A stretch of DNA of 64,000 nucleotides from Stomorhina lunata (lineage: Eukaryota > Arthropoda > Insecta > Diptera > Rhiniidae), in the NCBI GenBank assembly GCA_933228675.1, contig OW121743.1, forward strand, positions 111,161,468 to 111,225,467, read 5' to 3'. Every line of letters begins with the position of its first letter. Position 1 is the stretch's first letter. This document shows positions 9,233 through 40,545 of this stretch, in pieces. The notes beneath the pieces were generated by a model. The model worked only from the letters and a program-made list of their open reading frames with translations. It searched no databases and was not told the origin of the DNA. A program made the translations under genes and the position numbers.

Positions 9233-9548
9233 AAGTTTTACTGTAGTGTATTGCACTAAGAATCCCAATTTATTACAATTATTTATTATTGTAATAAATA
9301 GTTTTTTGATAAAACCAAAAAATGTTGGTGGGGAAACCTTTCCTCGACGCGTTTCGATGGTTGATTAGACCATCTCATCAGGAGGATTATCCCTAATTCT
9401 AGACAGAGTGAAAACCTCACATTATGTATAATCTGAGGGACTGAATAAATACGAGTTATTATTGTGTCCAACAAATATCAACATAAAGCGAAGATTATCA
9501 TCCGAACAGAAACACACAAACATTTTTCAGTTTTATCATTTCTTTATT
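9233..9548 (-). mobile_element. Hammerhead-bearing element A (Penelope-like end)
   Basis: About 315 bp nearly identical to 11055-11374. On + it begins GTTTTACTGTAGTGTATTGC, contains the ribozyme on the minus strand, and runs to TTTATCATTTCTTTATT. It encodes no protein. Hammerheads at the termini of Penelope-like elements are established in the literature; assigning this element to them is an inference because no reverse transcriptase is seen. It is nested in the hAT element. Confidence 0.65.
9330..9393 (-). ncRNA. Type I hammerhead ribozyme A
   Basis: Read on minus: CUGAUGAG, a perfect 6-bp stem II (GAUGGU/ACCAUC, 7-nt loop), CGAAAC, then GCGUC with cleavage predicted after GUC (between 9346 and 9345). 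Stem I is CCUC/GAGG, extended across an internal loop by GGGA/UCCC. All conserved core positions are present. Stem III is only two pairs, but ACGCGU is self-complementary, so a dimeric fold is likely. Confidence 0.88.
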
Positions 9549-10332
9549 TTTTTAAATTTCGCCTAAGTCAACTTAATAAATTTTTGAATTTTTCTACAAA
9601 AATGTTATTTGTATATGCCCTGCAGTCTCTAAAAAACATCAGTCCCTTAGCAGGAAGATATATTACATAGCTGAGATACATACACAATTATGATGGAATT
9701 AGAATAAAATTACAAAATTCAGTACAATTAGAAAATGCATATATACATAAATATGTATATATGTCGATAATGAATAAATCACATTTTAATCATATGACTT
9801 TTCATACATGTTTTTTAGACAAACCAAGTCCACGGTTTTGTTAAAATCGAGATGGAAATCATCTCAGCTTAAAAACCCTTTTTTAACCCAATAACTTAAG
9901 AAAGAGTCATTTCTTTATCCTCTAAAATGGGGACTTTTTTTCATGGGTATTAAATGATATTTAATCCCTTATGCAATCCTGAAACTTATTTTATGGTTAA
10001 GGACTTGTTTCGTTGAGATTTATTTTATTCCGCTCATTTATAGGTATTATATATTTTGGAACTGTAGGGTTCGTTTGAATACATTTATTTTTGTATGCCT
10101 TTACAAAATGATTTGTTTATAAAATTTTTAATTATTTTTGTATAAGATTAAGAATTAAAATAATTTAAATTAAATCTAACTGATTTTAAATTCCCTAAGA
10201 ATTAATTCTTAAAAGTTAAGACTTATGACTTGATTCAGGTGAATGTATTATGGGAATGATATAAACACTAAAATAAATTTGATTTTAAAATATGGAATTA
10301 GGAATTGAGCCTTTCGAACCTCTGACGAGTAC

Positions 10333-11050
10333 TAGAATTTTCTTTCGTTTTGTTTGAAAAAAGGGGTTTCCGAATAAGTTGAAAGAAGTTTTTGCTGCTT
10401 ATTAAAAGTTTATTACTACCAACTTTTAGTTTTTGAATAGCTAAAAATAAATAAAATGAAGCAAACAATTGTGCAATTGCAGTTGTTTGAATATTTACAG
10501 AAAAAACGTATTTATTGTTTAAAGTGCCTTAAAGTTTTAATATATATTAAGAACTTATTGTTAACAAAAATCTTTTAAAAATAATTTAAAAAAATATTAA
10601 ATTATACTTAAATTTTATGATCATAGTTATAATAAAATAAAAGTATAGTATAGGTTAACTATATAGAATAGCTTTGATAATCCTGGTTAAAGTTGAAAGT
10701 GATTTTTAACAAAAAATTTACATAAGTGTAAATAAACCCTTTTATAGTTTTTTTTTCTTTGTATAATGAAATTTTACTCACGTTCTACTGAAGGCAGTCA
10801 TTCAGTCAGTTGGGTAAAATATTCTAGGTAATAACTGGAAAGATTAAATTGAAACTTTACGATAGCAGTAGAGAATATAAAATTCTAACTTTAAAAACAG
10901 TCTAAATAATCTAATATACACTTAATACACTGAAAGAAAAAACTACATTTGCATATATATATGTGTCTTATATTCTTAAAAGAGCAATAATTGATAAAAT
11001 TTTGATAAAATTTGGACAGTGGGTACTTTTTTTAAAATATAAATATATTT
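10333..11050. other. AT-rich DNA with a small repeat fragment
   Basis: No gene. About 10965-11025 matches the sequence that flanks the TIR element at 16825-17870 (AAGAGCAATAATTG and AAATTTGGACAGTGGGTA), so it is a fragment of that repeat family. Confidence 0.55.
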
Positions 11051-11152
11051 TTAAAAAGTTTTACTGTAGTGTATTGCACTAAGAATCCCAATTTATTACA
11101 ATTATTTATTATTGTAATAAATAGTTTTTTGATAAAACCAAAAAATGTTGGT

Positions 11153-11216
11153 GGGGAAACCTTTCCTCGACGCGTTTCGATGGTTGGTTAGACCATCTCA
11201 TCAGGAGGATTATCCC
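11153..11216 (-). ncRNA. Type I hammerhead ribozyme B
   Basis: Core identical to ribozyme A: CUGAUGAG, stem II GAUGGU/ACCAUC, CGAAAC and GUC. One loop-II change (T to C) separates it from A. Predicted cleavage lies between 11169 and 11168 on the minus strand. Confidence 0.88.
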
Positions 11217-11493
11217 TAATTCTAGACAGAGCGAAAACCTCACATTATGTATAATTTGAGGGACTGAATAAATACGAATTATTATTATTGTGTCCAACAA
11301 ATATCAACATAAAGCGCAGATTATCATCCGAACAGAAACACACAAACATTTTTCAGTTTTATCATTTCTTTATTTCCCACACTTTTGTTGTTGCTTTGTT
11401 GGCGACTAAGACAAAAGTGCTATAAAGGGGGTTCAAAGAAAGATTTAAATAAACAAAAGTTTATTTTAAAGCTTGGCACATGTGCAGCCGTAT

Positions 11494-11798
11494 ATTTATT
11501 AAAAAGGTTTATCAAAATTTGGGACATCAAACATTTAATTAAAAAAAAATTATACATAATGTGAGGTTTTCGCTCTGTCTAGAATTAGGGATAATCCTCC
11601 TGATGAGATGGTCTAACCAACCATCGAAACGCGTTGAGGAAAGGTTTCCCCACCAACATTTTTTGGTTTTATCAAAAAACTATTTATTACAATAATAAAT
11701 AATTGTAATAAATTGGGATTCTTAGTGCAATACACTACAGTAAAACTTTTTAATTAAATGTTTGATGTCCCAAATTTTGATAAACCTTTTTAATAAAT
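11494..11798. repeat. 47-bp inverted repeat flanking ribozyme unit C
   Basis: 11494-11540 and 11751-11798 are reverse complements with almost no differences. They contain TTTGGGACATCAAACATTTA and its complement. They bracket the + strand ribozyme unit, so the locus can form a large hairpin. Confidence 0.85.
11588..11651 (+). ncRNA. Type I hammerhead ribozyme C (GUU site)
   Basis: CUGAUGAG, stem II GAUGGU/ACCAUC, CGAAAC and stem I CCUC/GAGG are all intact. The cleavage triplet is GUU instead of GUC (11633-11635). U is allowed at position 17 but usually cleaves more slowly. The change also makes ACGCGUU, still leaving the self-complementary ACGCGU. Confidence 0.82.
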
Positions 11799-11861
11799 AT
11801 ATTTTATTTTAATTTTCATTAAAATATAAATTTTACTCACGATTTTAGATTTCCTTAATTA

Positions 11862-12520
11862 CACTGTGTGTAATTTTTTAGGTCATGGAAAAATAACCAC
11901 ATACGGACACCACCACGAGATAGAGGATCAAAAAAAAGAAGACACGTGTCTTTCAGTTTTGTCAAATGTCCTCCCCTTTTTTGTGGGCGGGGCCCTAAAG
12001 ATTTTGGGCCTCTTTGCCTTTTTTGCAAAAAAGTGGTCATCTTCTCAGGCTCATATCTTCCAAACCGTTAGGAATTTCGATTTACTGTTTGAGGCAAAGT
12101 TGTAGCCATTGTCATGAGGAATAAAAATTGTGAACGCATTAAATCAAAAAACGCCATCTTAGAAATCAAAATCGCAAAAAACTTAAAAAAAAAAACGATT
12201 TTTTTTAGGCTTTTTTTACATGTTCAGGTTCATACGTAGCAAACCGTTCAAAATTTAAGAAAATAATATACTACAAAAATGTAGCTAAGACCTCACTTAA
12301 CAACTTTGTAGAACATACAAACATCCTAGGAATGATCCTTAACACAGTAAGGGTAGCGCTAAGGAAACCATAAAAATTAAAAATTTCCCAAAAAAATGAT
12401 ATTTTCAATGCTTATTTTTTTTTACTTCAACAATTAAAAATATAACCATATACAAATACAACTACGTGATAAAAGACAAAAAAGACCATATATTCTAGTT
12501 TTGCCCCAAGTCATGGAGTT
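11862..12520. repeat. Left terminal inverted repeat of the 4.3-kb transposon
   Basis: Reverse complement of about 15510-16149 with scattered differences. Shared landmarks include GACACCACCACGAGATAGAG, GACACGTGTC, GTGGGCGGGGCC and CGTAGCAAACCGTTC. The left copy has about 16 extra bases next to its tip. Confidence 0.85.
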
Positions 12521-12529
12521 TTTTCAGAG

Positions 12530-12830
12530 GCCCCCAAAGATTTGAGGTCTTGGTGTCATTAAAAAAGTAATCATTTTCTCAGGCGCATATTTTGCAAACC
12601 GAGTGGAATTTTCATTTTCTCTTTAAGGCAAAGATATTGTATAACCCTTGTAAAGAACAAAAATTGTGAACACATAAAATGAAAAAAACGTCATTTAAAA
12701 AAATCAATTTTTTTACCTTTTTTCCCATGTTTAAGTCCATACGTAGCAAACCGTTCGAAATTCAAGAAAACAATAAGCTACAAAAATGTACATAAGATCT
12801 AATTAAACAACTTTTTAGAACATTAAATTT
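12530..12830. repeat. Subterminal repeat, diverged copy of part of the left TIR
   Basis: Aligns with 11985-12300 (shared TTCTCAGGC, AAAATTGTGAAC, CCATACGTAGCAAACCGTTC). The left TIR region is therefore built from two diverged direct repeats about 540 bp apart. Confidence 0.65.
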
Positions 12831-13004
12831 CTAATACAAAAATAATTTAATTTCATTTGATTTAATTTCATTTCGTATGTGTAAAATTTTTTTATTTTAA
12901 TTTTTTTTGTTGTTATTTCAACATTAATATACAATGGCATATATCACAAAAATAAGATAAATAAATATGGAAATAAATAAAATAAATAAATATTTGTGTC
13001 ATGT

Positions 13005-14996
13005 TTATAAAGTTGATGGCCCTGGACTTGTAAATAGCACTCTCTTAAGTTGTGGATCCAATTCGTCGTCCGAATCATCCGAATCTGACTCTGATTCAGA
13101 ACTTAGGGTGCGCACGGGTACGTTGCTTCCAGACTGCCCTCCATCATAAGCTTTTTCTTCTTGAAATACTTCATTGACATCATACAGGGTAATCTTGTGG
13201 CTCCACCAACATACCTGAAATAAAAACAAAAATCAAAAAAGGAATACAAAGCAATGCATCAATATATTTGATATTACCTCTCCAAGCAATGCGTCTAGTT
13301 TTTTGCCTTTGTACCGTTTTTCCATGGGCATTGTGGTTTGATGAAACCGTTCTCCTTGCTCATCGGATTCAGTAGACAGTTGCTTCATAAAATCGTCAAA
13401 ATGAAAATGAAGAAAGTGCAGCTTTAATGTCATCGATGCGCCGATTTTCTCAAAATAATACAGCATTTCTTTCACCCATTCTCTTGCTTCCGGCTCAGCG
13501 TCTCGATCCCCTCCCAAGACTCTGGTGCATACACGTTGAAGATAAATCCATGCCATTGAATGATTTTCATCAAGCGCTGACTCAAAATTTGTCTTGAAAA
13601 GCTTTCTAATGTCTGGGCCATTAAGTACTCCTATCAAACGATAAAAAAAGAAACAGAAAAGAAAAGTAAATATACAATAAGGTGGAAAATATAGGATTTA
13701 GTTTACTACAATACATACCTTTCTTAATTTTGTCATCGCTACGCTTTGGGAAAACACTTTTCAAATAGTCAAATGCATTTGGACAATTTATAACAGCCAC
13801 TTCGATGAATTTTTTAACAATTCCCAATTTAATGTGGAGCGGTGGCAGCAAGATATCATGAGTATTGTCAATCAAAGGTGCATTTTTCAGTCTATGTTCT
13901 TTCATTTGTTCCTCCACATTTCCTCTTGGTGTCCACGAATTACATTCGAATTGATTCAGAGATCGCGAATCCCAATTACAACGAAAACAAAAGAATTTGG
14001 GAAAGCCGCCTTTATCAATGATCCCTTGCATAATGTTGATGACCTTCAAATCACAGCAAATCTTCCATTTATTTTCGTAGTATTTGATTTTTTCCATAAT
14101 ATTTTTCAATGTTTCGTAGTTTTCTTCCATGTTGACACCGATTGCTAGCGGAATGCAAGGTTTTCGGTTCGACATATGCAATAACACTGCCTTCAAGCTT
14201 GAAACAGAACTATCAATAAATAATCTCCACTCACTAGCGATGTAGTTTATTCCCATTTTTACCACCAAAGCTTTTATATCGTTGCAGTAAGCGAACGAAT
14301 TGTCATTATGTAGAGTGTAAAAGTTCTGAAATTCAGCTTGCCGTTTCCGGTATGCCGAAGAGTTAACGTTAGCAAGTGTTAATTTTCTTTGCTTTAAAAA
14401 CGCTGTCAAAAATATGGCAAGCCGCTGCGATAATCCCAATATGGCCACAATGAAATCCATTTCCATTTGTGTTATTAGTTGTGGTCCATCTCTTCCTTGT
14501 TGAGGCTCATAATCGGCGTCAAACGGATCTTCATAAGTAACACCACCTTCAGTATTCATTCCTGTAAATTCTGTCCTGAGATCTGTACTTGGTGGCCTTG
14601 GCGGTACAAAATTTTCAGGTGCAAGCACTGGTAGTGTAGCTGTTGCAGTTGCTTTATAAATTTTATTCTTCTCACCATGTCGATTCATTCCACGTGTGTA
14701 ATTTACGTATGCATAGCAAATGTTTACATCATGAGCACCTGGGCGATAAATCCAGTTTACCGGTTTACAATACTTCATACTAAATTTTGCTCCACTCAAC
14801 CATGCCATGAGATTGTTATAGCATTGGCGACACACTATATTAGGTGTGTAATTTTCACTGGTCAAGTCTACTTCGTCGAAAAACAATAGTATATGCTCTT
14901 CTGAATTCGCTAGTTAGAAGATTCTTTTCCATGTTTGTTTTTTCTAATTTGATGACCGCAAACGTAGCAAAATAAATTAATTTTTTCACACTGCAT
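13005..14996 (-). pseudogene. Three-exon transposase-like gene, frameshifted
   Basis: Exons run 14996-13719, 13630-13278 and 13214-13005. The introns (88 and 63 bp) have AAAG|GTATGT, GATAG|, GAGAG|GTAATA and TTTCAG| boundaries and keep the frame. The best start is the ATG at 14996 (MQCEKINLFCYVCGH), which supplies a CxxC; the frame then hits TAG at 14912-14910. A +1-shifted frame resumes (LANSEEHILLFFDEV) with a second CxxC (VCRQC). This frameshift makes the copy probably dead. Further motifs are FIDSS, KICCDLK, a C-x2-C in FFCFRCNWDSR, PPLHIKLG and, in exon 2, DEQGERFHQ; FIDSS, CCDLK and GERFH are plausible D, D, E catalytic residues. The C-terminus is acidic (Ser/Asp/Glu run). I recognise the pattern as a family repeated many times in insect and cnidarian genomes; the catalytic assignment is an inference. 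Confidence 0.75.
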
Positions 14997-15509
14997 ATTG
15001 AAATCGTATAACTTTCACCGCTGAGCTCTCGTTTACGTCGTGTTTTGTAATGCCTCGGTGCGAACATCATATCACTTATATATTGCGTCCAGGGTTTCAT
15101 GATTGTTTCTTGAATGAACGGTTTGCTACCTATGGACCTGGTTAGGTAAAAAATCGATTTTTGGTTTTTTATGGCAAGAGCTGATTTTTTTACTTTTTTA
15201 ATTTTTCCTAAGCGCTACCTAGCCTAAAAAGTAGTTCACTTTTGCGGTTACCAAGGCGCTACCTAAACGATATTGAGGATCATTCATATAATGTTCGTAT
15301 GAATGATTCAAAAAAGTTGTCCAATAAAAATGTATCTTTTCTAGGTGACTGTTTCTTGAATTTTTAACCTGTCCATAACCAGGTAAAAAATCAATTTTTA
15401 AAAATTTTGTGATCTTGAAGATTAATTTTTTATATGTTGAGAATTTTTCTTTTTTATGACAAGAGCTAATTTTTGAATTTTTCACTTTTGTCGTTACTTA
15501 AATGGTGAT

Positions 15510-16149
15510 GAATTGGGCCAAAACTGGAAGATATGGGCTTTCTTGTCTTTCATCACGTAGCGGTATTTGTACTATATATGGTTATATTTTTTTCTTGTTG
15601 AAGTAAAAAAAAAACATTAAAAATAACATTTTTTCGGGAAATTTTTAATTTTTATGGTTACATTAGCGCTACCTTTACTGTGTTAAGGATCATTCCTAGG
15701 ATGTTTGTATGTTCTACAAAGTTTTTAAGTGAAGTCTTAGCTTTATTTTTGTCGTATATTGTTTTCTTAAATTTTGAACGGTTTGCTACGTAGGAGCCTG
15801 AACATGTGAAAAAAGCCTAAAAAAATCGATTTTTTTTAGTTTTTTTGCGATTTTGATATTCAAGATGGCGTTTTTTGATTTTTTGTGTTCACTATTTTTA
15901 TTCCTCATGACAATAGCTACAACTTTGTTTCAAAAAGTAAATCAAAATTCCTAACGGTTTGGAAGATATGAGCCTGAGAAGATGACCACTTTATTGCAAA
16001 AATGACAAAGAGGCCCAAATTTTTAAGGCCCCGCCCACAAAAAAGGGGAGGACATTTGACAAAACTGAAAGACACGTGTCTTCTTTTTTTTGATCCTCTA
16101 TCTCGTGGTGGTGTCCGTATGTGGTTATTTTTTTTCATGTTGCACCGTG
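15510..16149. repeat. Right terminal inverted repeat of the 4.3-kb transposon
   Basis: Inverted partner of 11862-12520. It ends with CACCGTG, directly followed by TTA and the start of the older TATACCC repeat. The region 15100-15480 just inside has further diverged copies of the subterminal motifs (AACGGTTTGCTAC, GCGCTACCTA). Confidence 0.85.
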
Positions 16150-16856
16150 TTATACCCTTCACCATCATAGGTGGAAAGGATATTATAAGTTTGTGCTGAT
16201 GTATGTAACGCATAGAAATATTTGTCTTTCTATGTCACCTTTTAGTATAACAATAGACTTAGAATCACTTTCTGAGTCGATTTAGCGATGTCCGTCCGTC
16301 TGGCTGGCTGGCTGGACACCCATGTAAACCAAACTACAGGTCGCAATTCTAAAGATAATTTGATGAAATTTGGCACAGATCTTTTTTTTTGATAATGGGT
16401 ATTGAAATTGTTCAAAATCGGTCCATTATTTATGGTACCTCCCATAGGTCCCACTTCCTGAAATTGACATATTGGCCACAAATATCAATATTTTTTCATG
16501 AAATTTAAAACAAATACTGCTAATATAAACTAAAATCACTGTACCAAATTTCGGTCCACATTTGACCATAGCTCTCATACAAACTCTTCTGTAAAAACGC
16601 ACTAAATGAGACAAAAAATCACTAAAACGCTCGTAAATCTAAAGATAATGACAATTTTTAGTTTATTTTTTGCACACATAATTTTTGTAACAACTGTATT
16701 CAATTTGCCAATTTTCGGTCCACATTTGACCCTAGCTCTCATATAAGTCCAAATGACGGAAACAGGTTAAATATATAAGTTTGGAGAAAATGTTTGTATG
16801 ATGGCAAAATTTTGCAAATATCTTATATTCTTAAACGAGCAATAATTGTATATATA

Positions 16857-17790
16857 CCCAGCAAAACTTTGGTAACGGCAAGTACTCTGGTATCTGGTTA
16901 CCTTGTAATGACTACAGCATACCCTTCGAATAACTAATAAGTTATTACATAAGTACTTATTTGTAATTAAAATGGTAAGTTGAACTGAATGGCCCGGGTT
17001 CAAATCCCACCAAGAGCAACAATTTTTTTTATTTTTTTTTTATTAAAAATGTATTTTTAAATGATTTTTGAATTTTAAAAACATAAATATTACCTTCTGT
17101 AAAAAAAATTTTGGAAAACTAACTCACGGTAATGAAAAAATACAACTTGGCCTATAAAATTGAAGAATATTCGCACAAGATCGAAGAAAATAGGTTGTAT
17201 CTAAAGGCCATTTAAGTAAGTAAGAGCCAATATTATATAAAAACTTATACAAAAGGGAAGATTTAAATTGTTTAAGTTTTAAAATAATTAAAAAACACTT
17301 CTTCTTTGTTTATAAAATGCATTAAACATTTACAAAAAATCGTATAGAAATATGTTTCCAAAAATTACAACAAAGCAAAAAAGCAGAGAAAAACAAAGTT
17401 ATTGTCACATGATTTTGGATCTAAAAATAAAAATTGTTTATATTAATTATAAGCTGCTAAGTTTTCAACATATGAAGTAGCTCGGTGGAAGAGTCTCCGC
17501 CTAGCAGTCGGAGGGTCTGGGTTCGAGCCCCCATGGGGTCATAAGAAAAAAATTGTATTTCGTTTAAAAATATGTTTTTTAAATAAAACAACAACAAAAA
17601 AGTTGTTGTTGTTGTTGTTGTTGTCTTCCAATTACTTACCCAAGTCATTACATTTCTGCAATTGGTAAGTACTTGCCTCCAATGACATCCCCATGTTAAT
17701 GTAATGACTTAAACAGTGAATGAGTAAGTAGTTCGTGTTCAATAGTTTAACTGTATAACTCATTATTTGGTAATGAAAAGTTTTGCTGGG
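16857..17790 (+). mobile_element. TIR element with tRNA-like modules, copy 1
   Basis: Ends CCCAGCAAAACTTT and AAAGTTTTGCTGGG form the terminal inverted repeat. Flanks are TATA-rich on both sides, so the target duplication cannot be sized here. It is about 95% like 37821-38976, but lacks about 240 bp (junction in AAAATAC/AACTTGG) and has about 26 extra bases near 17240. It contains two perfect pol III B boxes (16997-17007 and 17520-17530) and a GTT run near 17600-17622. It encodes no protein. Confidence 0.8.
17471..17543 (+). ncRNA. tRNA-like module inside the TIR element
   Basis: 73 nt. TATGA pairs with TCATA at the ends, the D stem is GCTC/GAGT, and the anticodon stem TCCG/CGGA carries loop CTAGCAG (an AGC anticodon if read canonically). 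The B box is GGTTCGAGCCC. The T stem is mismatched, so it is tRNA-derived rather than a functional tRNA. The identical module occurs at 38660-38732. Confidence 0.6.
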
Positions 17791-18418
17791 TATATATATA
17801 TATATATATATAGAATGGCTATCTCGAAAACGGCTCTAACGATTTTGATAAAATTTGGACAGTGGGTATCTTTTTTGATGTATAGGTCGAAGAAGAAGGA
17901 ACTTTTACCTCTAAGAGGGTAAAAACGGGTAAAAAGGGGAAAAAATCGAAAACGCTATGTCTCCTAAAGTAATAGGTATAGAAACAAAATTAAAATTACG
18001 TTTTAAACAGCGTTGAAAATAAGCGGACAGGTGTTTGGTACTTTTTTGAAACTATGTCCGATAGGGGGTAAAAAAGGGTGAACATAGTTTTTTTGGCACC
18101 TTTTTAACCCACTCTTATATTTTAAACTAAAGAATATAGAAAGAAACTTGGTACGTATTTGGTACTTTTTTGATTTTGGAGCCAAAATGGGTAAAAAAGG
18201 GATAAAATGATAACTTAACATCTCCAAAGTAATATGAATAGGAACATTATGCATTATGTTAAATGCGTTTTAAAAAAATGTACCGAATTCAATTGGCACC
18301 AAAAAAGTACCAAATATACATATGGAACTTTTAGAAATTAGGGAATAAAAAGGGGGAAAAATTAGTATTATTTTAAACAAATGAATGTTTGTCTGTATGT
18401 ATGTTCTTTATAGAATAG

Positions 18419-19078: not shown

Positions 19079-19341
19079 GTTGGTCGGACAAAATAAATCA
19101 AATAATTCAAAATTAACTGAATATTTCTACAATGTCTTTCCTCTAAATTTATTTTAGCACTTTATAATATAAAATATATAAAAACTTTAAAATTTTCCTC
19201 AAAATGCTTATCATAAAGCTCCGAGCAAGGCTCGGTCTACCAGGTACTTTGTCTTTATACAGGAAAAATAACACCTTTGACCTTAGGGGTGAAGGGTATC
19301 GTATGGTCGGGCTTGACCGACTATAGCGCTTTCTTACTTGT

Positions 19342-23700: not shown

Positions 23701-23704
23701 TTTT

Positions 23705-24867
23705 TGCATACAATTTTCTTAAATCGATAAACTAATATTTGCTTAATATTCAAATCGAAAAACTCACATCTCATATAAAATTTACTTATATGTTTTTTTA
23801 CAGAATTTGTCAAACAAATCACTGTGAAATATTTAAAGTTTTACAACCAAGGTTGTCTTAATCTTATCTATAACTTAATCCTTATTTCTATGAGAAATTG
23901 GAATTTTTAGAGAACCTTTTTTCTTATACAAGATAAGAACATTTAAACATTTTAAAACTATTCCAAAACATTTATGAGAACTTTTAAGGAAAATCTTTCT
24001 TTTGGCAATAAAAGTTTAGCTTTTAATTTGACCGTTTAGGCTCTTATAACTTTTTTTTAATTTTAACCCCCTTAGTCATAAACGATTTATATCAATGTCT
24101 TGTCATAACTTTGTTTTATGAGGGGCTAAATCTAGAACTTAGTTAAAATTCAAAAACTTTTATTTTCATTTTGGTAATTTAAAAAATATTTTATTCTTTT
24201 TTTTGAACATAAATTTTATTTTGAAAGACTCTTAAGAAGTCTAGGTAGTATTTTTGTTTAAAGATTAATTTTATCTTTATTTTATTTCTTTTTGATTTTT
24301 CTGAGTCTACATTTAAGGCCTAAATTTTATTTTTATGTCTTTATTTTCTGTTATTTTTATGTTATCTGTTTTTTGTTATTTAAAACAAAACAACAGAAAT
24401 CTTAAGGTATTTTTTTTTGTTATTATTTTTTATATTCGGCAGGTGTTAGAAAACAAAAGAATCAACAATATCGACTCTTAAAGGTTTCTTGTTTATTTTA
24501 TTTAAAGAATAACTTAAATTTACCTTTTTTTCTATTTGACAATGGCCTTGAGAATAAGAAGATATTTTTTGTCTACAAACCGATACCTAAATATTCTGCT
24601 AAGTACTTTTTTGTATGTGTATTTTGAGTGTTTAAATGTGTGTGTGTTAGTATTTGAAGAGTCTAGTTGTTTTCTTTATTTTGTGTTATATTTCATGCCT
24701 CTTGGAACAAAAACATGCACACACACACACACACACGCACACACATCTAAAGAAAAGCATTAAAAACATATGATTTTTTTAATGCTCATACGCGCAGTTG
24801 AACCTAATTGCTTAATATGATTGTTATTACTCATACGCTAGAGTGGAAAAATTTAATTAATTTTTTC
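23705..24867. other. AT-rich DNA, no gene seen
   Basis: Nothing recognisable apart from a CA microsatellite at 24718-24744. A short open frame at 24536-24763 runs into that microsatellite and is not supported. Confidence 0.5.
24718..24744. repeat. (CA)n microsatellite
   Basis: CA run interrupted once by CG. It lies 120 bp upstream of the large TACA array. Confidence 0.85.
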
Positions 24868-26617
24868 ATATACATACATACATACATGCATACATACATA
24901 CATACATGCATGCATGCATGCATGCATACATACATACATACATACATACTACATACATACATACATACATACATACATACATACATACATACATACATAC
25001 ATACATACATACATACATACATACATACATACATACATACATACATACATACATACATCATACATACATACATACATACATACATACATACATACATACA
25101 TACATACATACATACATACATACAACATACATACATACATACATACATACATACACATACATACATACATACATACATACATACATACATACATACATAC
25201 ATACATACATACATACATACATACATACATACATACATACATACATACATACATACATACATACATACATACATACATACATACATACATACATACATAC
25301 ATACATACATACATCAGACATACATACATACATACATACATACATACATACATACATACATACATACATACATACATACATACATACATACATACATACA
25401 TACATACATACATACATACATACATACATAAATACATACACACATACATACATACATACATACATACATACATACATACATGCATACATACATACATACA
25501 TACATACATACATACATACATACATACATACATACATACATACATACATACATACATACATACATACATACATACATACATACATACATACATACATACA
25601 TACATACATACATACATACATACATACATACATACATACATACATACATACATACATACATACATACATACATACATACATACATACATACATACATACA
25701 TACATACATACATACATACATACATACATACATACATACATACATACATACATACATACATACATACATACATACATACATACATACATACATACATACA
25801 TACATACATACATACATACATACATACATACATACATACATACATACATACATACATACATACATACATACATACATACATACATACATACATACATACA
25901 TACATACATACATACATACATACATACATACATACATACATACATACATACATACATACATACATACATACATACATACATACATACATACATACATACA
26001 TACATACATACATACATACATACATACATACATACATACATACATACATACATACATACATACATACATACATACATACATACATACATACATACATACA
26101 TACATACATACATACATACATACATACATACATACATACATACATACATACATACATACATACATACATACATACATACATACATACATACATACATACA
26201 TACATACATACATACATACATACATACATACATACATACATACATACATACATACATACATACATACATACATACATACATACATACATACATACATACA
26301 TACATACATACATACATACATACATACATACATACATACATACATACATACATACATACATACATACATACATACATACATACATACATACATACATACA
26401 TACATACATACATACATACATACATACATACATACATACATACATACATACATACATACATACATACATACATACATACATACATACATACATACATACA
26501 TACATACATACATACATACATACATACATACATACATACATACATACATACATACATACATACATACATACATACATACATACATACATACATACATACA
26601 TACATACATACATACAT
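24868..26617. repeat. (TACA)n tetranucleotide array, 1.75 kb
   Basis: A continuous TACA/CATA tetranucleotide run. The left part (to about 25483) has occasional variants (TGCA units, CATCATAC, ACAACATAC, AGACATAC), whereas about 25484-26617 is uninterrupted, roughly 283 perfect units. Long open frames in all phases (Tyr-Ile-His-Thr or Cys-Met-Tyr-Val repeats) come only from a 4-bp repeat lacking stops. Confidence 0.98.
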
Positions 26618-27024
26618 TTGTATATACAAACACATACATAAATAGATATTGAAAATCTTTTCTTAAATTCTTAATTACATTAAGCTAATGTTAAAATTTT
26701 GTCTCATATCCTAGCTTCGACATTACTTAAAGTGAAGAGCTTTTGATATGAGTTTAAAAATAACCGTATCCTTTAAATGATTAATTTTACAGGTTCGTTT
26801 TATTTATTCAAAACAAATTTAAACTCTTAAAAGCATAATGTCATTTAACTTTGAAAGCGTTTCAAGTCAAAGTATTTTTAAATTATCTATGTATGTATCT
26901 TTATATACCAAACAAGGGAAAATTTAACACTTAAAGACTTTTATTTCGTTTGTGTTTATTGGCTGACAAACCCACCATTGCCTTCTATGTTACCGACGAA
27001 CCTACTGTTTGGCTTGCGTGGTGT
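26618..27024. other. AT-rich DNA, no gene seen
   Basis: Short unique segment between the TACA array and the reverse-oriented TTATACCC family copy. Confidence 0.5.

Positions 27025-28811: not shown

Positions 28812-28820
<9 letters not shown>

Positions 28821-28879
<59 letters not shown>
28821..28879. repeat. (TA)n microsatellite
   Basis: About 29 perfect TA units ending in TATATG. Confidence 0.9.
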
Positions 28880-28884
<5 letters not shown>

Positions 28885-29337: not shown

Positions 29338-29575
29338 CAAACTATTTTTCTATAAAAACTACTGCTTTTCCGGTGAAAAAACACAAAAATGCCGGTAAAT
29401 CGGCAAATCTGCCAGGCCTGACTTGGACGTTTTTCTGACATTTTTTGCACGATTTGTCATATACTCAAAAGGGCCTACAACCCACGCTAAGTCGTTTCCC
29501 CAGATTTGTTTTAGTGTATGAGAGTGTAATACAATTTTTTTTTTATTTATTTCCCCTTAGGGTTTTATTGTGCTT

Positions 29576-29814: not shown

Positions 29815-29853
29815 ACTTGCGGTAAGTATAAATTATTATGATTCTTTTCTTAT

Positions 29854-31066: not shown

Positions 31067-32815
31067 ATAGTATCTACATTTATATCAAAGCCTACTGCTA
31101 TTAAAAAATAATAAAAGTTTTCCATATTTAAAAAGAAACAAGAAAATATACACGCACTCAGTCCTGATGTATCAGCAAAGTAAGTTTTAAGCCCACCCCT
31201 TAATTCCACTATGCAAATAACAAAAACCAGGTGACGTATGATTGATATTAAAGATATGTAAAAATTTTCAATAATAATCATACGTCACCCATCCCCTTTT
31301 ATAATGGAAACAAGTTTTTTTTTCCCTAGAACAGAAAAACGAAATACCAAAAGCAAACATATCAATTGCTTGGAACTATTCAAAAAATAAAGAAAAATAT
31401 TTATTTTCCTCAATTATATTTATTTTAGATCAAATTATATATATGTATTTGCTGTCCTTTTTCTACAAATCCTTGTTCAATTTTTTTTGATAAAGTCAGC
31501 ATTTTAAAATAATGCAAGTCTATAAGTTATATTCTTGTTCTAAAATTTCAATTCCACTTCAACCGAAAGTAAATATTTAGACAATCAAATAAATAAAAAA
31601 TTTGGAAAAATAAAAGAAATCTTCGTTAAATGCTAACATGTTTTTAGAGAACACTAAATAGAATGATAAAAATAAATTTGTAGTAGATAAAATGTTTAAC
31701 CATTAAGTTTTAATACTCCTAAATAAATATTATATTATTTTTTAATTTTTTTTCCTCTAGCCTTTCTTTAACAAACACAATATAAATAAAATTTATTTAG
31801 AAAAACCTTTTTAGTATTCAATGCCAATTCAACAAAAGGCTCTGGCAACAAGGTAAACAATGTAATGAAAGTTTTCTAACCTTTTCATTGAGTTTAAGTG
31901 ACAAACATTTGATATGAAAAGAAACTTTTTAATTTAATGTCCTTGACGATTTTTAGGGCTTTCTGGGGTAAAAATCTTCTTTATGAAGTAATTTATTTTT
32001 ATAAAGAAATTTTCGGAAATTTTTTTATATTTTACAAGTTGATACATATTAAAGATGTATTCTATAAAATTTTTTGAAAAATTTGATTACAATTGAGTTA
32101 AAAATAAATATTCAAATTCTCTAGAAATATTTTAAATTGTCTCCACAATTTAAATTTCATTAAATAAAATACTACGCATTTAATTTTCCTTTAAAATTTT
32201 ATTAAAACTTATTTTATATAGAAACAGGAGTCGAGTAAATAGAACCTGAAAGAAAGAGCATAGAAGCAAAAATTCCTATTATTATAATAGGCAAAAAATG
32301 AGACCATTTTTCAATTAAGTGTCTTGTGGTTAAAGAACACTTTAACTGTTTTCAAAGGAGATTTGTTAATTTTAAATCTATACAACATTTGGCAGCAGTT
32401 TTTCCTTTTCTATTATATTTTTTGGGTCTCATGCCTTTGGCGGGTTTTACAAGGCAAATATTTATTTTATAAGGTAAACTAGGGAAGAAGTTAAAATATT
32501 TTAAACAATCATTTTCTAAACAAAGAAATTGAAACAGAAATATTAAAATTTTCTCTACTATTTGATAAGAAAGTTTGTCATATTTAACTCTTTTAAGCCG
32601 ACATTTTGATGTTTTTAACAAGAAATTTTTATTTTGAATTATCGAAATTGAAAGGGTATTTATTTAAATAAAATATTTTACAGTGAAAGCTTTTTTATAT
32701 ATGGCTTATCATAGTCATAACCCTTCTCAAGCAATCTTATCACAGATCGGCAACTCTTCCACGAAAATAATCAGAGCGATATTAAAATAAAAAAACAGTC
32801 GCAATTTATTTTTAT
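31067..32815. other. AT-rich DNA, no gene seen
   Basis: No supported gene. A minus-strand 89-aa open frame at 32352-32621 is Lys/Leu/Phe-rich without domain or splice support. A 14-bp hairpin at 31230-31289 is the one structured site. Confidence 0.5.
31230..31289. repeat. 14-bp perfect inverted repeat with TGACGTA
   Basis: GGTGACGTATGATT (31230-31243) and AATCATACGTCACC (31276-31289) are exact complements with a 32-nt loop. The TGACGTA core resembles CRE/AP-1 type sites, but it could equally be the tips of a small decayed element. Confidence 0.6.
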
Positions 32816-33975
32816 TAAACATATCGCAGTGACATTTTTTCTATAGAAAACTTATCACAGTGATATTTTCTAAAGAAAACTTATCACATTGATAATTTTT
32901 CTAAAGAAAGCTTATCACAGTGACAATTTTTCTAAAGGAAACTTATCACAGTGACAATTTTTCTATAGAAAATTTATCACAGTGACAATTTTTCTTTAGA
33001 AAATTTATCACAGTGACAATTCTTCTATAGAAAATTTATCACAGTGACAAATTTTCTATACAAAATTTATCTCTGTGACAATTTTTCTAAAGAAAACTTA
33101 TCGCAGTGACAATTTTTCTATAGAAAATTTATCACAGTGACAATTTTTCTATAGAAAACTTATCACAGTGACAATTTTTCTATAGAAAATTTATCACAGT
33201 GACAACTTTTCTATAAAAAATTTATCACAGTGACAATTTTTCAATAGAAAATTTATCACAGTGACAATTTTTCTATAGAAAATTTATCACAGTGACAATT
33301 TTTCTATAGAAAATTTATCACAGTGACAATTTTTCTATTGAAAATTTATCACAGTGACAATTTTTCTACAGAAAATTTATCACAGTGACAATTTTTCTAA
33401 AAAAAAATTATCACAGTGACAATTTTTCTATAGAAAATTTATCACAGTGACAATTTTTTTATAGAAAATTTATCACAGTGACAATTTTTTTATAGAAAAT
33501 TTATCACAGTGACAATTTTTCTTTAGAAAATTTATCACAGTGACAATTTTTCTATAGAAAATTTATCACAGTGACAATTTTTCAATAGGAAACATATGAC
33601 GGTGACAATTTTTCTATAAAATACTTGCCACAGTGAACATTTTTTTGTATAAAACTAATCACAGTGACAATTTTTATATGGAAAACTTATAACAGTGACA
33701 ACTTTTATATAGAAAACTTATCACAGTGACAACTTTTCTATAAAAAAAACTTTTCACTGTGGCACTTTTTCTATAAAAATCTTCTCATATTGACAATTTT
33801 TCTATAAACATCTTATCACAGTGACAATTTTTGTATAGAAAACTTATCACACTGGCAATTTTTTTATAAAAAATTTATCACAGTGACAATTTTTCTAAAA
33901 AAAAACTTCTCACAGTCACAATTTTTCTATAAAAAACTAATCACTGTAACAATTTGTCTATAGAAAACTTATCAC
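32816..33975. repeat. 31-bp satellite (ATCACAGTGAC spacer), about 38 units
   Basis: Same unit as 30366-30749: TTATCACAGTGACAATTTTT plus CTATAGAAAA. The centre is homogeneous; both edges carry substitutions and length changes. It passes directly into a related but different array at about 34000. Confidence 0.93.
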
Positions 33976-33999
33976 ACTATTCTTGATACAAAATTTCTA

Positions 34000-36150
34000 A
34001 AGAAAATTTTGTTATATTTTATAAAATTTCTGTCGAAAATTTTTTTATAAAAAATTTCTATAAAAAGTTTTTGTATAAAAAAATTTTTGATACAAAATTT
34101 TTGTATAAAAAAATTTTTGATAAAAAATTTTTTAAATTTTCTATAGAAATTTTTTAAATAAAAAATTTCTATAGAAAATTTTTGTATAAAAATTTCTATA
34201 GAAAATCTTTTTATGAAACCTATACAAATTTTTTATACAAAATTTTTGTTTAAGAAATTTTTATCGAACATTTTTATTAGAAAAAAAATTTTATAGAAAA
34301 TTTTTGTATAAAAAACTTCTATAGATAATTTTTGTATAAAAAATTTCTATACAAAATTTTTGAATAAAAAATTTCTATAGAAAATTTTTATATAAAAAAA
34401 TTCCTTTAGAAAATTTTTAGATAAAAAAAAATTCCTTTAGAAATTTTTTAGATAAAAAACTATAGAAAATTTTAAGAAACAAATTTCCTATAGAAAATTT
34501 TTAGATATAAAATTTCTTTAGAAAATTTTTGATAACAAATGTCTATAGAAAATTTGAAGATAAAAAATCTATATTAAAAATTTGTATGGAAAATTTTTTA
34601 TCAAAATTTTCTACAGAAAATTTTTATATAGAAAATTTTTATTTAAAATTTTTTATAGAAAAGTTTTATTGAAAAATTTCTTTTGAAAATTTTTGTATAA
34701 AAAATTTCTATGAATAATTGTGTATTTAATTTTTTTCTTAAATTTCTATAGAAAATTTTTATATAAAAAATTTCTATAGAAAATTTTTATTTAAAAAATT
34801 TCTTTAGACAATTTTTATTTAAAATTTTTTTTATAGAAAATGTTTATATAAAAAAATTCTATAAAAACTATTTAATTAACTATTTAATTTTTTTCTTAAA
34901 TTTCTATAGAAAATGTTTATATAAAAAATTTCTATAGAAAATTTTTATTTAAAAAATTTCTTTAGACAATTTTTATTTAAAAATTTTTTTATAGAAAATG
35001 TTTATATAAAAAAATTCTATAAAAACTATTTAATTGAAAAATTTCTGGAGAAAATTTTTATATAAAAAATTTTTATAGAAAATTTTTATATAAAAAATTT
35101 TTATAGATAATTTTTATATAAAAAATTTTTATAGAAAATTTTTATATAAAAAATTTTTATAGAAAATTTTTATATAAAAAACTTTTATAGAAAATTTTTA
35201 TATAAAAAATTTTTGTAGAAAATTTTTATAGAAAATTTGTATATAAAAAATTTTTATAGAAAATTTTTATATAAAAAATTTTTATAGAAAATTTTTATAT
35301 AAAAAATTTTTATAGAAAAATTTTATATAAAAAATTTTTATAGAATATTTATATAAAAAATTGTTATAGAATATTTATATAAAAAATTGTTATAGAAAAT
35401 TTTTGTATAAAACATCAAAAGAAAATTTTCGTATAAAAAATTTCTATAGAAAATTATTATTTGAAAATTTCTATAAAAAAATTTTATTTGAAAATTTCAA
35501 TAAAAAGTTTTTATATAAAAAATTTGTATATAAATTTCTATAGAAAATTTTTATTAAAACATTTCTATAGACAATTTTTATATAAAAAATTTCTATAAAA
35601 ATTTTGTATAGAAAATTTTTATATAAAAAATTTTTATAGAAAATTTTTGTATAAAACGTCAAAAGAAAATTTTCGAATAAAAAATTTCTATAGAAAATTT
35701 TTATTTGAAAATTTCTATAAAAAAATTTTATTTGAAAATTTCAATAAAAAGTTTTTATATAAAAAATTTGTATATAAATTTCTATTGAAAATTTGTATTA
35801 AAACATTTCTATAGACAATTTTTATATAAAAAATTTCTATAAAAATTTTCTATAGAAAATTTTTATATAAAAAATTTTTATAGAAAGTTTTTGTATAAAA
35901 CGTCAAATGAAAATTTTCGTATAAAAAATTTCTATAGAAAATTTTTATTTGAAAATTTCTATAAAAAAATTTTATTTGAAAATTTCAATAAAAAGTTTTT
36001 ATATAAAAAATTTGTATATAAATTTCTATAGAAAATTTTTATTAAAACATTTCTATAGACAATTTTTATATAAAAAATTTCTATAAAAAATTTCTATAGA
36101 AAATTTTTATATAACAAATTTTTATAGAAAATTTTTATATATAAAAATGA
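34000..36150. repeat. AT satellite, 28-30 bp unit (TATATAAAAAATTTCTATAG)
   Basis: Degenerate array. Two higher-order blocks stand out: a 158-bp copy (TTTTTTCTTAAATTTCTATA at about 34731 and 34889) and a 244-bp block repeated three times, marked by (A/G)TCAAAAGAAAATTTTCG at about 35413, 35657 and 35901. Confidence 0.88.
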
Positions 36151-37428
36151 CCTGAAGCTATCATTGGGTTAAACAATTCCGTAATACCATTAGGTACCGT
36201 CTGTTGCTTAAATAACACATTTTATCCCATTTTAGCAACAAATATGTATTTTATTCGTTTATTTTTAGCTCCTAAATAAGTTTACCACAAATCTCAGGGT
36301 TTATTGTTTGCTAACACACGTGTTAGGTTTAACAAAATACCTTTTGCAAAACTTTTATCAATTTTATTTGTTGTTTATATCCCAGGTATTTTGGCAAAAG
36401 TGTCAACGTATTGGTTTAACCAAAATCACGCCTTGTTCTAGTTTTTTTAAGGCTCTACTTATATTTTCAAAAATTTCTTAGAAAATTTGTTAGAAGTTGT
36501 CAAGATAAAACTCGTAAAGGTTAAATTTCTTAGAAATTATCTGTAATTGTGAAGCTTAATTTATAGTTATTAGACTAGGTGGAAGTAGTTGTCATACAAA
36601 TTAACCGCATTTAAGAAATTTATTGGTTATTTACAGAATTTCATGAGAGTTAATTAAGTTAATGGTGATTATATCTCTAGAAGCAATGTGTTTCATGTTG
36701 AAAGTTTAGATTATCACTTAATTTATATTAAATTTTAAACTTTGCCTTAATATGTTGAAAGAAATTTAAGTTTTGCTTAAACTTTTCAAGAATCCATTTT
36801 TGCCAAAACTTAACTTAAGTATTTTATTTGCCATAATAAATAATCTTTTATCATGTGTGACTAACTTTTCTTAAGACAAGTTAAATGACTTGTTAACAAA
36901 TATTTTTTTCTTACAATAAAACTGACTTAAAATCACATTCAACTCAACTAAAAATACTACGTTTTTCCATTTATGTTCTTCTGTTTTTCGTCTTAACTCC
37001 CTGACTAATGAAGAGCCCTTTTCTTACACATCATTAACTCTAATTCAAACCAAAAAAGGCAAAAACGAAAGAAATATTATAATATATGGCAAAAATGCTG
37101 TTTTTGTGTTTTATATAAAAATTGATAACAATAGAAAATAAATTGCTACATGGAGAATAACTCCTTAAAAATTGGCAAAAAATATAAATAAATAAAGAAC
37201 ACCCAAAAAAGGCATCAGCCAAGAAATTGTAATTATGAAGAAATAGAATAAAGAATTAAAAAAGTTCTAAATATTTAAGGGAGAGAAGCGAAAAAAGCTG
37301 TTCTTGGCTGAAATATTATGATATATGTAACTTAAAAGTTACTCAACTTGTTGTATAGTTTTAGGAGTTCTAAAATAATTCATATCAAGAATATCTTTAA
37401 CAAATTCAATATTGTATATAAATCAAAA
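36151..37428. other. AT-rich unique DNA, no gene seen
   Basis: No recognisable feature; open frames are short. Confidence 0.5.
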
Positions 37429-37495
37429 GGGATCAAATGCGAATAGTCATTCTTTTTGAATAATATTTACATCCGACAATTTTGTTATTTTTTGA
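37429..37495 (+). repeat. Lone diverged end of hammerhead subfamily 2
   Basis: GGGATCAAATGCGAATAGTC, then TTCTTTTTGAATAATATTTA, CATCCGACAATTTTGTTATT and TTTTGA, match the right ends of the elements finishing near 39459 and 40678. No ribozyme is attached, so it is either a truncated element or related flanking sequence. Confidence 0.55.
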
Positions 37496-37820
37496 TAAAT
37501 AAAAAGGCCATACTAAAAACAATTTTTGCTTTGAAAATGTAACAGTGAAAAGATTTCAATATAATGTTTAGGTTATCCTAAAAGTATGCAATACTTTTTC
37601 AAGTTAGTTATGATTTAAATTTTTTATATAATAGATTTTTTTTTCTGAAAAAAGTTTTTCTATAGAAAATTTTTTAAAATTTCTATAGAAAATTTTTCCA
37701 TAAAACATTTCTGTAGATAATTTTTCTATAACATTTTTTTTTTATACAAAATTTCTATAGAAAATTTTTAAAAAAAATTATTCTGTCAAATATTTCTTCA
37801 GAAAATTGTTCAATAAATAA

Positions 37821-38976
37821 CCCAGCAAAACTTTGGTAACGGCAAGTACTCTGGTATCTGGTTACCTTGTAATGACTACAGCATACCCTCCGAATAACTA
37901 ATAAGTTATTACATAAGTACTTATTTTTAATTAAAATGGTAAGTTGAACTGAATGGCCCGGGTTCAAATCCCACCAAGAGCAACAATTTTTTTTTATTTT
38001 TTTTTATTAAAAATGTATTTTTAAATGATTTGTGAATTTTAAAAACATAAATATTACCTTCTGTACAAAACATTTTGGAAAACTAACTCACGGTAATGAA
38101 AAAATACTATCATGAGTCAATTTTGATTATGTAGGCTACATACCTATTGGATACCAAGCAACGGTTCTGCTTGGTCTTAACTTGGTAAGCATAGACTTAT
38201 CTTGGTTATCCTTTATTTCAACTGTGGACACTGACCTCCTAGTGACATCACCAAAAGAGCTACGTTACGTAGTGAGCTAACATGTACCGCGAGTTGTAAA
38301 ATAAGAACGATAAAAAATGGGATGGAAAGACCAAGTAGAGGAAAAATTTTCACAACTTGGCCTATAAAATTGAAGAATATTCGCACAAGATCGAAGAAAA
38401 TAGGTTGTATCTATAGGCCATTTAAGTAAGTAAGAGCCAATATTATATAAATTATATTGTTTAAGTTTTAAAATAATTAAAAAACACTTCTTTTTTGTTT
38501 ATTAAATGCATTAAACATTTACAAAAAATCGTATAGAAATATGTTTCCAAAAATTACAACAAAGCAAAAAAGCAGAGAAAAACAAAGTTATTGTCACATG
38601 ATTTTGGATCTAAAAATAAAAATTGTTTATATTAATTATAAGCTGCTAAGTTTTCAACATATGAAGTAGCTCGGTGGAAGAGTCTCCGCCTAGCAGTCGG
38701 AGGGTCTGGGTTCGAGCCCCCATGGGGTCATAAGAAAAAATTTGTATTTCGTTTAAAAATATGTTTTTTAAATAAAACAACAACAAAAAAGTTGTTGTTG
38801 TTGTTGTTGTCTTCCAATTACTTACCCAAGTCATTACATTTCTGCAATTGGTAATTACTTGCCTCCAATGACGTCCCCATGTTAATGTTATGACTTAAAC
38901 AGTGAATGAGTAAGTAGTTCGTGTTCAATAGTTTAACTGTTTAACTCATTATTTGGTAATGAAAAGTTTTGCTGGG
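37821..38976 (+). mobile_element. TIR element with tRNA-like modules, copy 2
   Basis: Same CCCAGCAAAACTTT termini as copy 1. TAA flanks both ends, which would fit a 3-bp target duplication, although copy 1 (TATA on both sides) does not confirm the length. Copy 2 keeps about 240 bp missing from copy 1 (about 38110-38350). B boxes lie at 37961-37971 and within 38660-38732. It encodes no protein and is inserted in satellite DNA. Confidence 0.8.
38660..38732 (+). ncRNA. tRNA-like module inside the TIR element (copy 2)
   Basis: Identical to 17471-17543: TATGA/TCATA ends, GCTC/GAGT arm, CTAGCAG loop and B box GGTTCGAGCCC. Conservation between copies reflects the age of the element and does not by itself show function. 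Confidence 0.6.
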
Positions 38977-39033
38977 TAAGTTCTATAAAAAATCTTTCTC
39001 TTAGAAATTTCTATAGAAGATTTTTTTATTCAA

Positions 39034-39459
39034 AAAGAAGTGTATTTGCATTTGATCCCAAACCTGTTACATTTATTTATTAATGTAACAGATCAATTTA
39101 TTGATAAAAAGCCAAAAAATGTTGATGAAAACTGAAAAATGTTTGTTTTTGTTCAGTCGATAATCTACGCTTTTACTTTTGGTTTATGAACATAATTCTT
39201 AATAGTTATGTTTGTAAATTTAGTAATAATGCGAGGTTTTCGATCTGTCTAAATTGGGGATAATCCTCCTGAAGAGATGGCTTAACCAACCATCGAAACG
39301 CGTCGAGGAATTTGGTTTCTCCGCAAACATTTTTTGGCTTTTTATCAATAAATTGATCTGTTACATTAATAAATAAATGTAACAGGTTTGAGATCAAATG
39401 CAAATACACTTCTTTTTGAATAATATTTACATCCCGACTAATTTGTTATTTTTTGAAGA
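39034..39459. mobile_element. Hammerhead-bearing element D (subfamily 2)
   Basis: About 95-bp inverted ends (CAAAAAGAAGTGTATTTGCA on the left, its complement on the right) contain TGTTACATTAATAAATAAAT-type sequence. The interior carries one + strand ribozyme. It resembles an inverted, truncated Penelope-like insertion. No protein is encoded. Confidence 0.65.
39256..39322 (+). ncRNA. Type I hammerhead ribozyme D
   Basis: CUGAAGAG (fits CUGANGA; position 7 is the one variable core base), stem II GAUGG/CCAUC, CGAAAC, GCGUC with cleavage after 39304, and stem I CCUC/GAGG. The outer stem is GGGGA/UCUCC, which still pairs through one G-U. The loop and flanks differ from subfamily 1. Confidence 0.85.
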
Positions 39460-40146
39460 TTTTTTTATAAAAAATTTCTTTAGAAAATTTTTCTATAAAA
39501 AATTTCTATAGAAAAGTTTTCTATAAAGAAGTTTTTTATAAAAAATTTCCATAGAAAATTTTTTTTATAAAAAAAGTCTATAGAAAATTTTTCTATAAAA
39601 TTTTTTTATAGAAATTTGTTCTATAACAAATTTCTTAAGAAATTTGTTTCTATAAAAAATTTGCTACAATAAATTTTTATAGAAAATGTTTCTTTCAAAA
39701 ATTTCTTCAGAAAATGTTTCTATAAAAATATTTTTTAAAACTTTCTATAGAATATTGTTCTTTAAAAAATTTCTATAGACAATTTTTCTATAAAAATTTC
39801 TATAGAAATTTTATTTTCTACAGAAAATTTTTCTATAAAAAATTTTTATAAAAAATTTTTATAAAAAATATATAGAAAAGTTTTCTATAAAAAATTTCTA
39901 TAGAAAATTTTTCTATAAAAAATTTTTATAAAAATTTGTTCTGTAACAAATTTCTTAAGAAAATTTTTCGACAAAAAATTTCTATGGAAATTTTTCTATT
40001 AAAATTTCTTTACAAAATTTTTCTATAAAAAATTTCGATAGAAAATTTTTCAAAAAGAAGTGTATTTGCATTTGATCCCAAACCTGTTACATTTATTTAT
40101 TAATGTAACAGACCAATTTATTGATAAAAAGCCAAAAAATGTTTGC

Positions 40147-40213
40147 GGAGAAACCAAATTCCTCGACGCGTTTCGATGGTTGGTTAAGCCATCTCTTCAG
40201 GAGGATTATCCCC
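40147..40213 (-). ncRNA. Type I hammerhead ribozyme E
   Basis: Same sequence as ribozyme D on the opposite strand: CUGAAGAG, GAUGG/CCAUC, CGAAAC and GUC. Predicted cleavage lies between 40165 and 40164. Confidence 0.85.
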
Positions 40214-40490
40214 AATTTAGACAGATCGAAAACCTCGCATTATTACTAAATTTACAAACATAACTATTAAGAATTATGTTCATAAACCAAAAGTAAAAGC
40301 GTAGATTATCGTCTGAACAAAAACAAACATTTTTCAGTTTTCATCTACCTTCACTTCCCACATTCTTGCTGTAGCCGTCGGCTACTATATGCAGAATGCT
40401 GTGAAGAAGGGGGGGGTAAGATGTTTTAAAATAAACAAGTTTATTTTAAAAAATAAGCTAATGCATGCAGTTTTATCAAAAAATAACAAG

Positions 40491-40545
40491 ATGAAGAGAT
40501 GGCTTAACCAACCATCGAAACGCGTCGAGGAATTTGGTTTCTCCG
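40491..40545 (+). ncRNA. Truncated hammerhead F, core broken
   Basis: Stem II, CGAAAC, GCGUC and GAGG are kept, but the sequence entering the core reads AUGAAGAG instead of CUGAAGAG, and the CCUC strand of stem I is absent because the copy is cut there. It is very unlikely to cleave on its own. Confidence 0.75.

Follow-up and report, generated by a model that had tools for sequence, protein, structure and literature searches.

Animal retrozymes are small hammerhead-bearing repeats, and Penelope-like elements (PLEs) have been put forward as strong candidates for their helpers, on the grounds that type I hammerheads and tandem occurrence are found in both and that the two co-exist in genomes (PMC7229834); a second account repeats the suggestion from common hammerheads and co-occurrence (PMC7761336). 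How PLEs insert has been described for a lizard element, whose protein cleaves and extends both DNA strands. Its reverse transcription begins at two neighbouring internal sites, and the stretch that separates them forms an optional 30–40 bp tail, which that account calls unique to PLEs (PMC11167929). A rotifer PLE is described with direct and inverted pseudo-long terminal repeats (pLTRs), a 31-bp tail on one inverted copy and a 9-bp duplication (PMC3846280). Here we analysed hammerhead-bearing repeats in a 64,000-nt stretch of the genome of the fly Stomorhina lunata (contig OW121743.1, positions 111,161,468–111,225,467; hereafter the window) and at further loci of the same genome. With a probability that we put at roughly 0.78, these repeats are non-autonomous animal retrozymes of two families (A, 488 nt; B, 464 nt; single or tandem) that are mobilised in trans by PLE machinery.

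An initial annotation of the window listed five complete hammerheads and one broken copy, and all six are present where it put them. A motif script, which required CUGANGA, a stem II of at least 4 bp, GAAA, a UH site and a stem I of at least 4 bp, returned exactly five sites, with core starts at 9381 (−), 11204 (−), 11600 (+), 39269 (+) and 40200 (−); on 60 first-order Markov surrogates it returned a mean of 0.03 sites and a maximum of 1. The regular expression CTGANGAN{8,30}CGAAAC matched the window five times, against 0.06 matches expected. A type I core with stems I and II and its open end on stem I is present in five of the six copies. The broken copy, at 40492 (+), has similarity that begins within the core and lacks both C3 and the 5′ strand of stem I. 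Stem I comprises 5 pairs beside the core plus a distal helix, and stem II comprises 5–6 pairs. The cleavage site, given in the annotation as GUC or GUU, is GUC in four copies and GUU in the copy at 11588–11651.

Stem III, however, is no true helix within one molecule: it amounts to 2 bp, an A-U plus a C-G around GC, forming the palindrome ACGCGU. Since such a stem III is not closed within one molecule, the hammerheads would belong to the dimer type described for PLEs. Lunse et al. 2017 and Cervera and de la Pena 2014 reportedly described small PLE hammerheads that cleave as dimers. The self-duplex of ACGCGU has a computed energy of −8.9 kcal/mol, and the centroid fold of one copy (11581–11651) is the hammerhead form with stem III open. 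A covariance search, suggested alongside the annotation, lent it no support: no Rfam family passed its cut-off in the window, and at a permissive threshold none of the 117 Rfam matches at E≤10 was to a hammerhead model. A whole-genome Rfam hammerhead search found none in the 73 of 59,897 candidates scored and is uninformative, its controls also having gone undetected. The palindromic stem III is consistent with this silence of Rfam and points to hammerheads that may act as pairs. Many of the microRNA matches below cut-off in the window scan lay on simple repeats; a tetranucleotide repeat of about 1.8 kb and TACA/ATGT type, at 24808–26670, was the source of those resembling mir-297.

The window copies fall into two related families, about 97–99% identical within and 74–85% identical between. 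Their hammerhead stems are almost identical, and loop II starts with TCT in family A and with CTT in family B. The unit of 488 nt (A) or 464 nt (B) is also the head-to-tail tandem period; units are 31–32% GC, and the longest reading frame in two joined units is 85 aa. Across the 728-Mb genome a 33-place core pattern occurred 3,428 times (1,726 forward, 1,702 reverse), and its reversed-letter control not once. Similarity searches gave at least 90 matches for A, with 40 of 2,227 first-look candidates scored, and at least 75 for B, with 40 of 1,675 scored; both figures are lower bounds. Units in arrays adjoin head to tail without a gap, and the longest array seen, of 13.69 units, has a single mismatch, located in its terminal tail. 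The cores are also dispersed: the first 100 cores listed (contig C1, ordered by place and not by score) form 84 clusters over 21.7 Mb, and their 16 close neighbour pairs (<1.2 kb) comprise 10 divergent, 4 tandem and 2 convergent pairs. In these 100 places we also saw hammerhead subtypes whose loop II starts with CCT, GCT, ACT or TTT, so the retrozyme families probably number more than two.

The features of an animal retrozyme without long terminal repeats (LTRs) were all found here: a type I hammerhead on short, non-coding units of low GC that are dispersed and occur in tandem. The initial annotation had left a choice between ends of PLEs and animal retrozymes. Tandem arrays with as many as 13.7 almost identical units argue for the latter, in keeping with the 488/464-nt period and the thousands of dispersed cores; PLE ends have so far not been borne out, given no coding match to pieces of one resident PLE protein in the window or L001–L080, frames of at most 85 aa and very short matches to the one PLE 5′ region compared. 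The retrozymes appear to be real and abundant and the sampled copies young, and near-identity between loci makes recent activity plausible.

The link to PLEs is real, and it resides in the anatomy of the insertions. The A and B units were mapped on 80 loci, of which 67 remained after 13 overlapping loci were dropped; the counts of ends and duplications exclude arms below 97% identity or shorter than 50 nt. Most insertions consist of one arm, or of a pair facing outward head to head. Counted from the cut, outer ends mainly occupy two zones per family, 117–131 (143 in three) or 156–166 in A and 116–133 or 144–157 in B, giving alternative 3′ ends about 34 nt apart. Four ends lie outside these zones (A 68 and 421; B 372 and 454), 421 and 454 being the limit of the fetched stretch. 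The two end sites are near-copies of one T-run motif, CTTTTTAAT in A or TTTTTGA in B. Among 26 head-to-head insertions, 21 combined a short with a long end, one was long-long, one short-short and three were unclassified, two of the last (L027 and L074) exceeding the fetched stretch. Against a 50:50 expectation, 21 of 23 gives p = 6.6e-5. Four extra pairs that fell below the identity filter (L047, L054, L067 and L078) were all short/long. Judged from these ends, the retrozymes would have two reverse-transcription start sites 30–40 nt apart and inverted terminal copies.

The two arms of the 26 head-to-head insertions meet in a short overlap (13), a flush join (3) or with filler (10). Target duplications were assessed from flank matches in a set of 69 insertions, which includes two probable duplicate pairs (L028/L029 and two copies in L052). 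The longest match averaged 10.9 nt, against 8.2 nt for re-paired flanks and 8.6 nt for the best of 31 re-pairings. In 18 of 24 head-to-head insertions the match was 11–15 nt; the others measured 6, 8, 9, 9, 18 and 20 nt. By eye, flanks are often A+T-rich runs like AAAATTTTTCTATAGAAAA, as they also are at the PLE of C2:134.12 Mb described below.

Satellite or foldback repeats that spread at the DNA level, by unequal exchange or by excision and insertion of inverted repeats, with the hammerhead as a passenger, would also produce tandem arrays and terminal inverted repeats, and both exist here, the latter of 55–98 nt. We consider such an origin very improbable. The cores are dispersed, as the 84 clusters among the first 100 attest; flank matches exceed those of re-paired flanks; and inner ends are scattered, whereas outer ends fall at two preferred sites. 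The inverted repeats, which vary in length, are the common tails of two divergent arms, and the foldback DNA element that they had suggested was rejected as a candidate.

The window itself holds three head-to-head insertions with target duplications of 12–14 bp. The family A insertion at 11052–11792 (locus L001) joins A2 (−, about 11051–11545) to A3 (+, about 11547–11801), with hammerheads at 11153–11216 (−) and 11588–11651 (+). Its left end is short (unit 118) and its right end long (unit 166), and the duplication ATAAATATATTTT lies at 11039–11051 and 11793–11805, the right copy overlapping the element end by microhomology. Two family B insertions lie in locus L051. The first, B1 (39030–39454), has a short left arm (−, 39026–39123) without a hammerhead and a right arm (+) with a hammerhead at 39256–39322; it ends at unit 119 and unit 152, between copies of GAAGATTTTTTTAT at 39016–39029 and 39455–39468. 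The second, B2 (−)/B3 (+) at 40052–40677, carries a complete hammerhead at 40147–40213 (−) and the broken one at 40491–40545 (+); its left end is short (123) and its right end long (157), and its duplication AGAAAATTTTTC lies at 40040–40051 and 40678–40689. A single 5′-truncated arm of family A, A1, occupies 9222–9549 (−) and includes the hammerhead at 9330–9393 (−), with a GUC site; no target duplication could be made out in its T-rich flank. At 37431–37489 (+) lies a diverged (88%) piece of a family B 3′ tail, which extends as far as the long-end motif region (TTTTTTGATAAA). Long runs rich in A+T, like AAAATTTTTCTATAGAAAA, also occur at 39450–41200 and 43465–44836.

PLEs with open frames reside in the same genome. 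GIY-YIG domains were found at 7 genome places, not necessarily all PLEs. A 175-aa PLE piece had 87 genome matches, 11 of them within uninterrupted frames of 830–864 aa. In Pfam the C-terminal PLE piece gave RVT_1 and GIY-YIG and two other PLE pieces gave no match; a PDB sequence search with the C-terminal piece also gave none. In the PLE at C2:134.12 Mb, RVT_1 and GIY-YIG lie together in one open frame of 832 aa; a dimer-type hammerhead stands ahead of the likely start codon, and both 3′ flanks also carry one. By eye, the two arms of this element diverge, a long end and a short one lie about 39 nt apart, and there is a common flank of about 13 nt. A second PLE, at C11:74.12 Mb (L086), has a different hammerhead upstream, with the palindrome ACGU. 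The stems I and II of the two PLE hammerheads differ in sequence yet pair (by eye), so at least two resident PLE families carry dimer-type hammerheads. This second locus (C11:74120685–74124150) holds two tandem PLE frames of 846 aa, 2,977 bp apart, with the hammerhead of L086 upstream. Two other observations near PLEs were made by eye: a 5′-truncated family B piece (L082, about 310–430, −) adjoins an open-frame PLE and ends near the short-end motif, and a PLE copy at C7:20.666 Mb has an imperfect hammerhead-like sequence (L077, about 20–75) near its 3′ end.

The A and B units might instead be solo or tandem pLTRs of an autonomous resident PLE family, in which case the hammerhead would serve that PLE and the small copies would be its internal deletions. 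PLEs with tandem, inverted and solo pLTRs are known (PMC3846280), and the end anatomy and hammerhead type of A and B agree with PLEs; our survey covered a small part of the PLE flanks, and the protein search used pieces of one PLE family. In the window and loci L001–L080 that search (tblastn, E≤1e-3) turned up no coding match, the arrays run without gaps for up to 13.7 units, and the PLE flanks that were examined hold other sequences. We regard pLTRs as an unlikely identity for the units. The window has 37 frames of at least 90 aa, and none of the seven scanned with Pfam was a reverse transcriptase or GIY-YIG protein.

On the reading as PLE-mobilised retrozymes, the inner ends of single arms may tell what kind of RNA was copied. 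We took single arms of at least 0.8 unit (n=38), with 14 loci dropped, L029 among them; also left out were four segments whose inner end adjoined another copy and two that measured 0.41 unit. Thirteen of the 38 inner ends lay 5–39 nt past the predicted cut, and no arm stopped within the 46 nt before the cut or at 40–90 nt after it; a simulation with smooth length decay gave a mean of 4.0 for this class (P = 1e-4). A further 17 arms ended at 91–177, near whole unit numbers (P = 0.02). In the eight arms longer than 1.9 units, four ends were just past the cut, three were near whole units and one was neither. Ends at 5–39 nt look as if reverse transcription had run off at ribozyme-made 5′ ends of cleaved RNA, and ends near whole units can be read as products of at least one turn round a circle. 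Some sequence variants are common to every covering unit (L069), and also to both arms (L027, L075), which fits the repeated copying of one RNA monomer, or else a homogeneous donor array. Because such an array would also give identical units, unit identity does not decide between a circular template and a linear multimer.

A cycle can be proposed that would account for these ends. Transcripts of two or more units would cut themselves at GUC^GAGG, two hammerheads pairing via ACGCGU, and the products would last as linear RNAs starting at the cut and as ligated circles. The end anatomy suggests that a resident PLE protein with reverse transcriptase and GIY-YIG domains would then cut both strands of A+T-rich DNA, reverse transcription beginning at either of two RNA sites about 34 nt apart, one per side of the break. 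Circling, or reading along a multimer, would give tandem arms; two arms would join head to head, or a single arm would run off a cleaved 5′ end, and repair would leave a duplication, mostly of 11–15 bp. It is a tentative extension, which we hold with somewhat less than even confidence, that the insertions record the life cycle of the ribozyme: the PLE protein would copy circles, giving arms of near-whole units that end close to the start site, as well as cleaved linear multimers, giving arms that end just past the cut, and an asymmetric protein–RNA complex would place one start site per side of the DNA break, leaving every twin-primed insertion with a short and a long end.

Several observations weigh against this interpretation, in whole or in part. 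The minimum-energy fold held a hammerhead in none of five single copies, the hammerhead fold with open stem III lying 2.8–3.7 kcal/mol above the minimum. In the published lizard PLE work, as far as that account goes, changes to the hammerhead core had no effect on insertion in vitro and no reads started or ended at the cut (PMC11167929). Our loci were picked by best score, which favours young, longer copies, and end classes and intervals were fixed after the data had been seen. Individual flank matches are weak in A+T-rich DNA, where re-paired flanks already average 8.2 nt. The 52 head-to-head arms show no excess at the cut site (6 after, 7 before), as would be expected if two arms join before run-off, and this is equally a warning. 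A reverse transcriptase blocked by a folded hammerhead could likewise give ends at 5–39 nt. Some loci, L008 and L011 among them, have variants in some units only, and variants 137, 317 and 348 are present in both L069 and L075; occurring in more than one locus, these are subfamily markers. Two other PLE stretches (L084 and L085), both coding or junction sequence, contained no hammerhead. A and B share very short matches with one PLE 5′ region (best 15 nt, E about 0.001), and for that reason we name no specific helper.

With no helper named by that comparison, mobilisation by another retroelement, such as a long interspersed nuclear element (LINE), might be entertained, its Penelope-like ends having arisen by chance or convergence. 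LINEs have indeed been proposed as possible helpers of animal retrozymes (PMC7229834). Against them stand the ends at two internal sites, one short and one long: a tail of this kind is described as unique to PLEs (PMC11167929), and a resident PLE has it. A LINE helper is accordingly a remote prospect in our estimate, and mobilisation by PLE machinery remains our preferred reading.

Two other parts of the window drew attention. By eye, 11830–12105 (+) and 15917–16234 (−) are similar coding-like stretches in inverted orientation; they flank minus-strand frames of 154, 430 and 119 aa (13233–15214) without a Pfam match over cut-off. The whole, 11830–16234, probably represents a further mobile element, about 4 kb long, whose ends are inverted. 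A 352-aa open frame at 55190–56248, rich in Q, H, S and N and likewise without a Pfam match over cut-off, is possibly an exon of a host gene.

These findings bear on how animal retrozymes move: their insertion ends carry a mark described as unique to PLEs, in a genome with open PLE frames. A single PLE protein and a single short RNA would suffice for a direct test of the helper question. The clustering of ends just past the cut suggests that in vivo cleavage could be readable from genomes alone. Elements of this kind are already known; the combination of features and the evidence from insertions are apparently new, within the literature that we examined. In that open-access literature, represented mostly by titles and opening lines, we found no report of the tail or of the head-to-head pattern in retrozymes.

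Of the closest described systems, the plant LTR retrozymes are similar in being non-autonomous and hammerhead-bearing, with a circular RNA intermediate proposed, but they are described with type III hammerheads, LTRs, a primer-binding site and 4-bp duplications (PMC7761336, PMC7229834). The small PLE hammerheads share a core nearly without stem III and a proposed paired action (PMC7761336), while the predicted hammerheads of A and B sit on tandem non-coding units with PLE-like insertions. PLEs of the Penelope/Poseidon clade are alike in their hammerheads within terminal repeats, their tandem and inverted repeats, their 30–40 bp tail, their A+T-rich targets and their duplications of about 10 bp (PMC11167929, PMC3846280), and differ in that the A and B units are without a long reading frame. 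The animal non-LTR retrozymes of Cervera and de la Pena 2020 (PMC7229834) are likewise small, dispersed and arranged in tandem, have a low GC content and carry a type I hammerhead; their target duplications, too, exceed the 4 bp seen in plant retrozymes, and dimer-acting hammerheads are reported in amphibians. Circular RNAs of about 170–400 nt are described there, whereas the units here measure 464–488 nt. What sets A and B apart from these retrozymes is a palindromic stem III of PLE type, together with the head-to-head arms and the short and long ends of Penelope.

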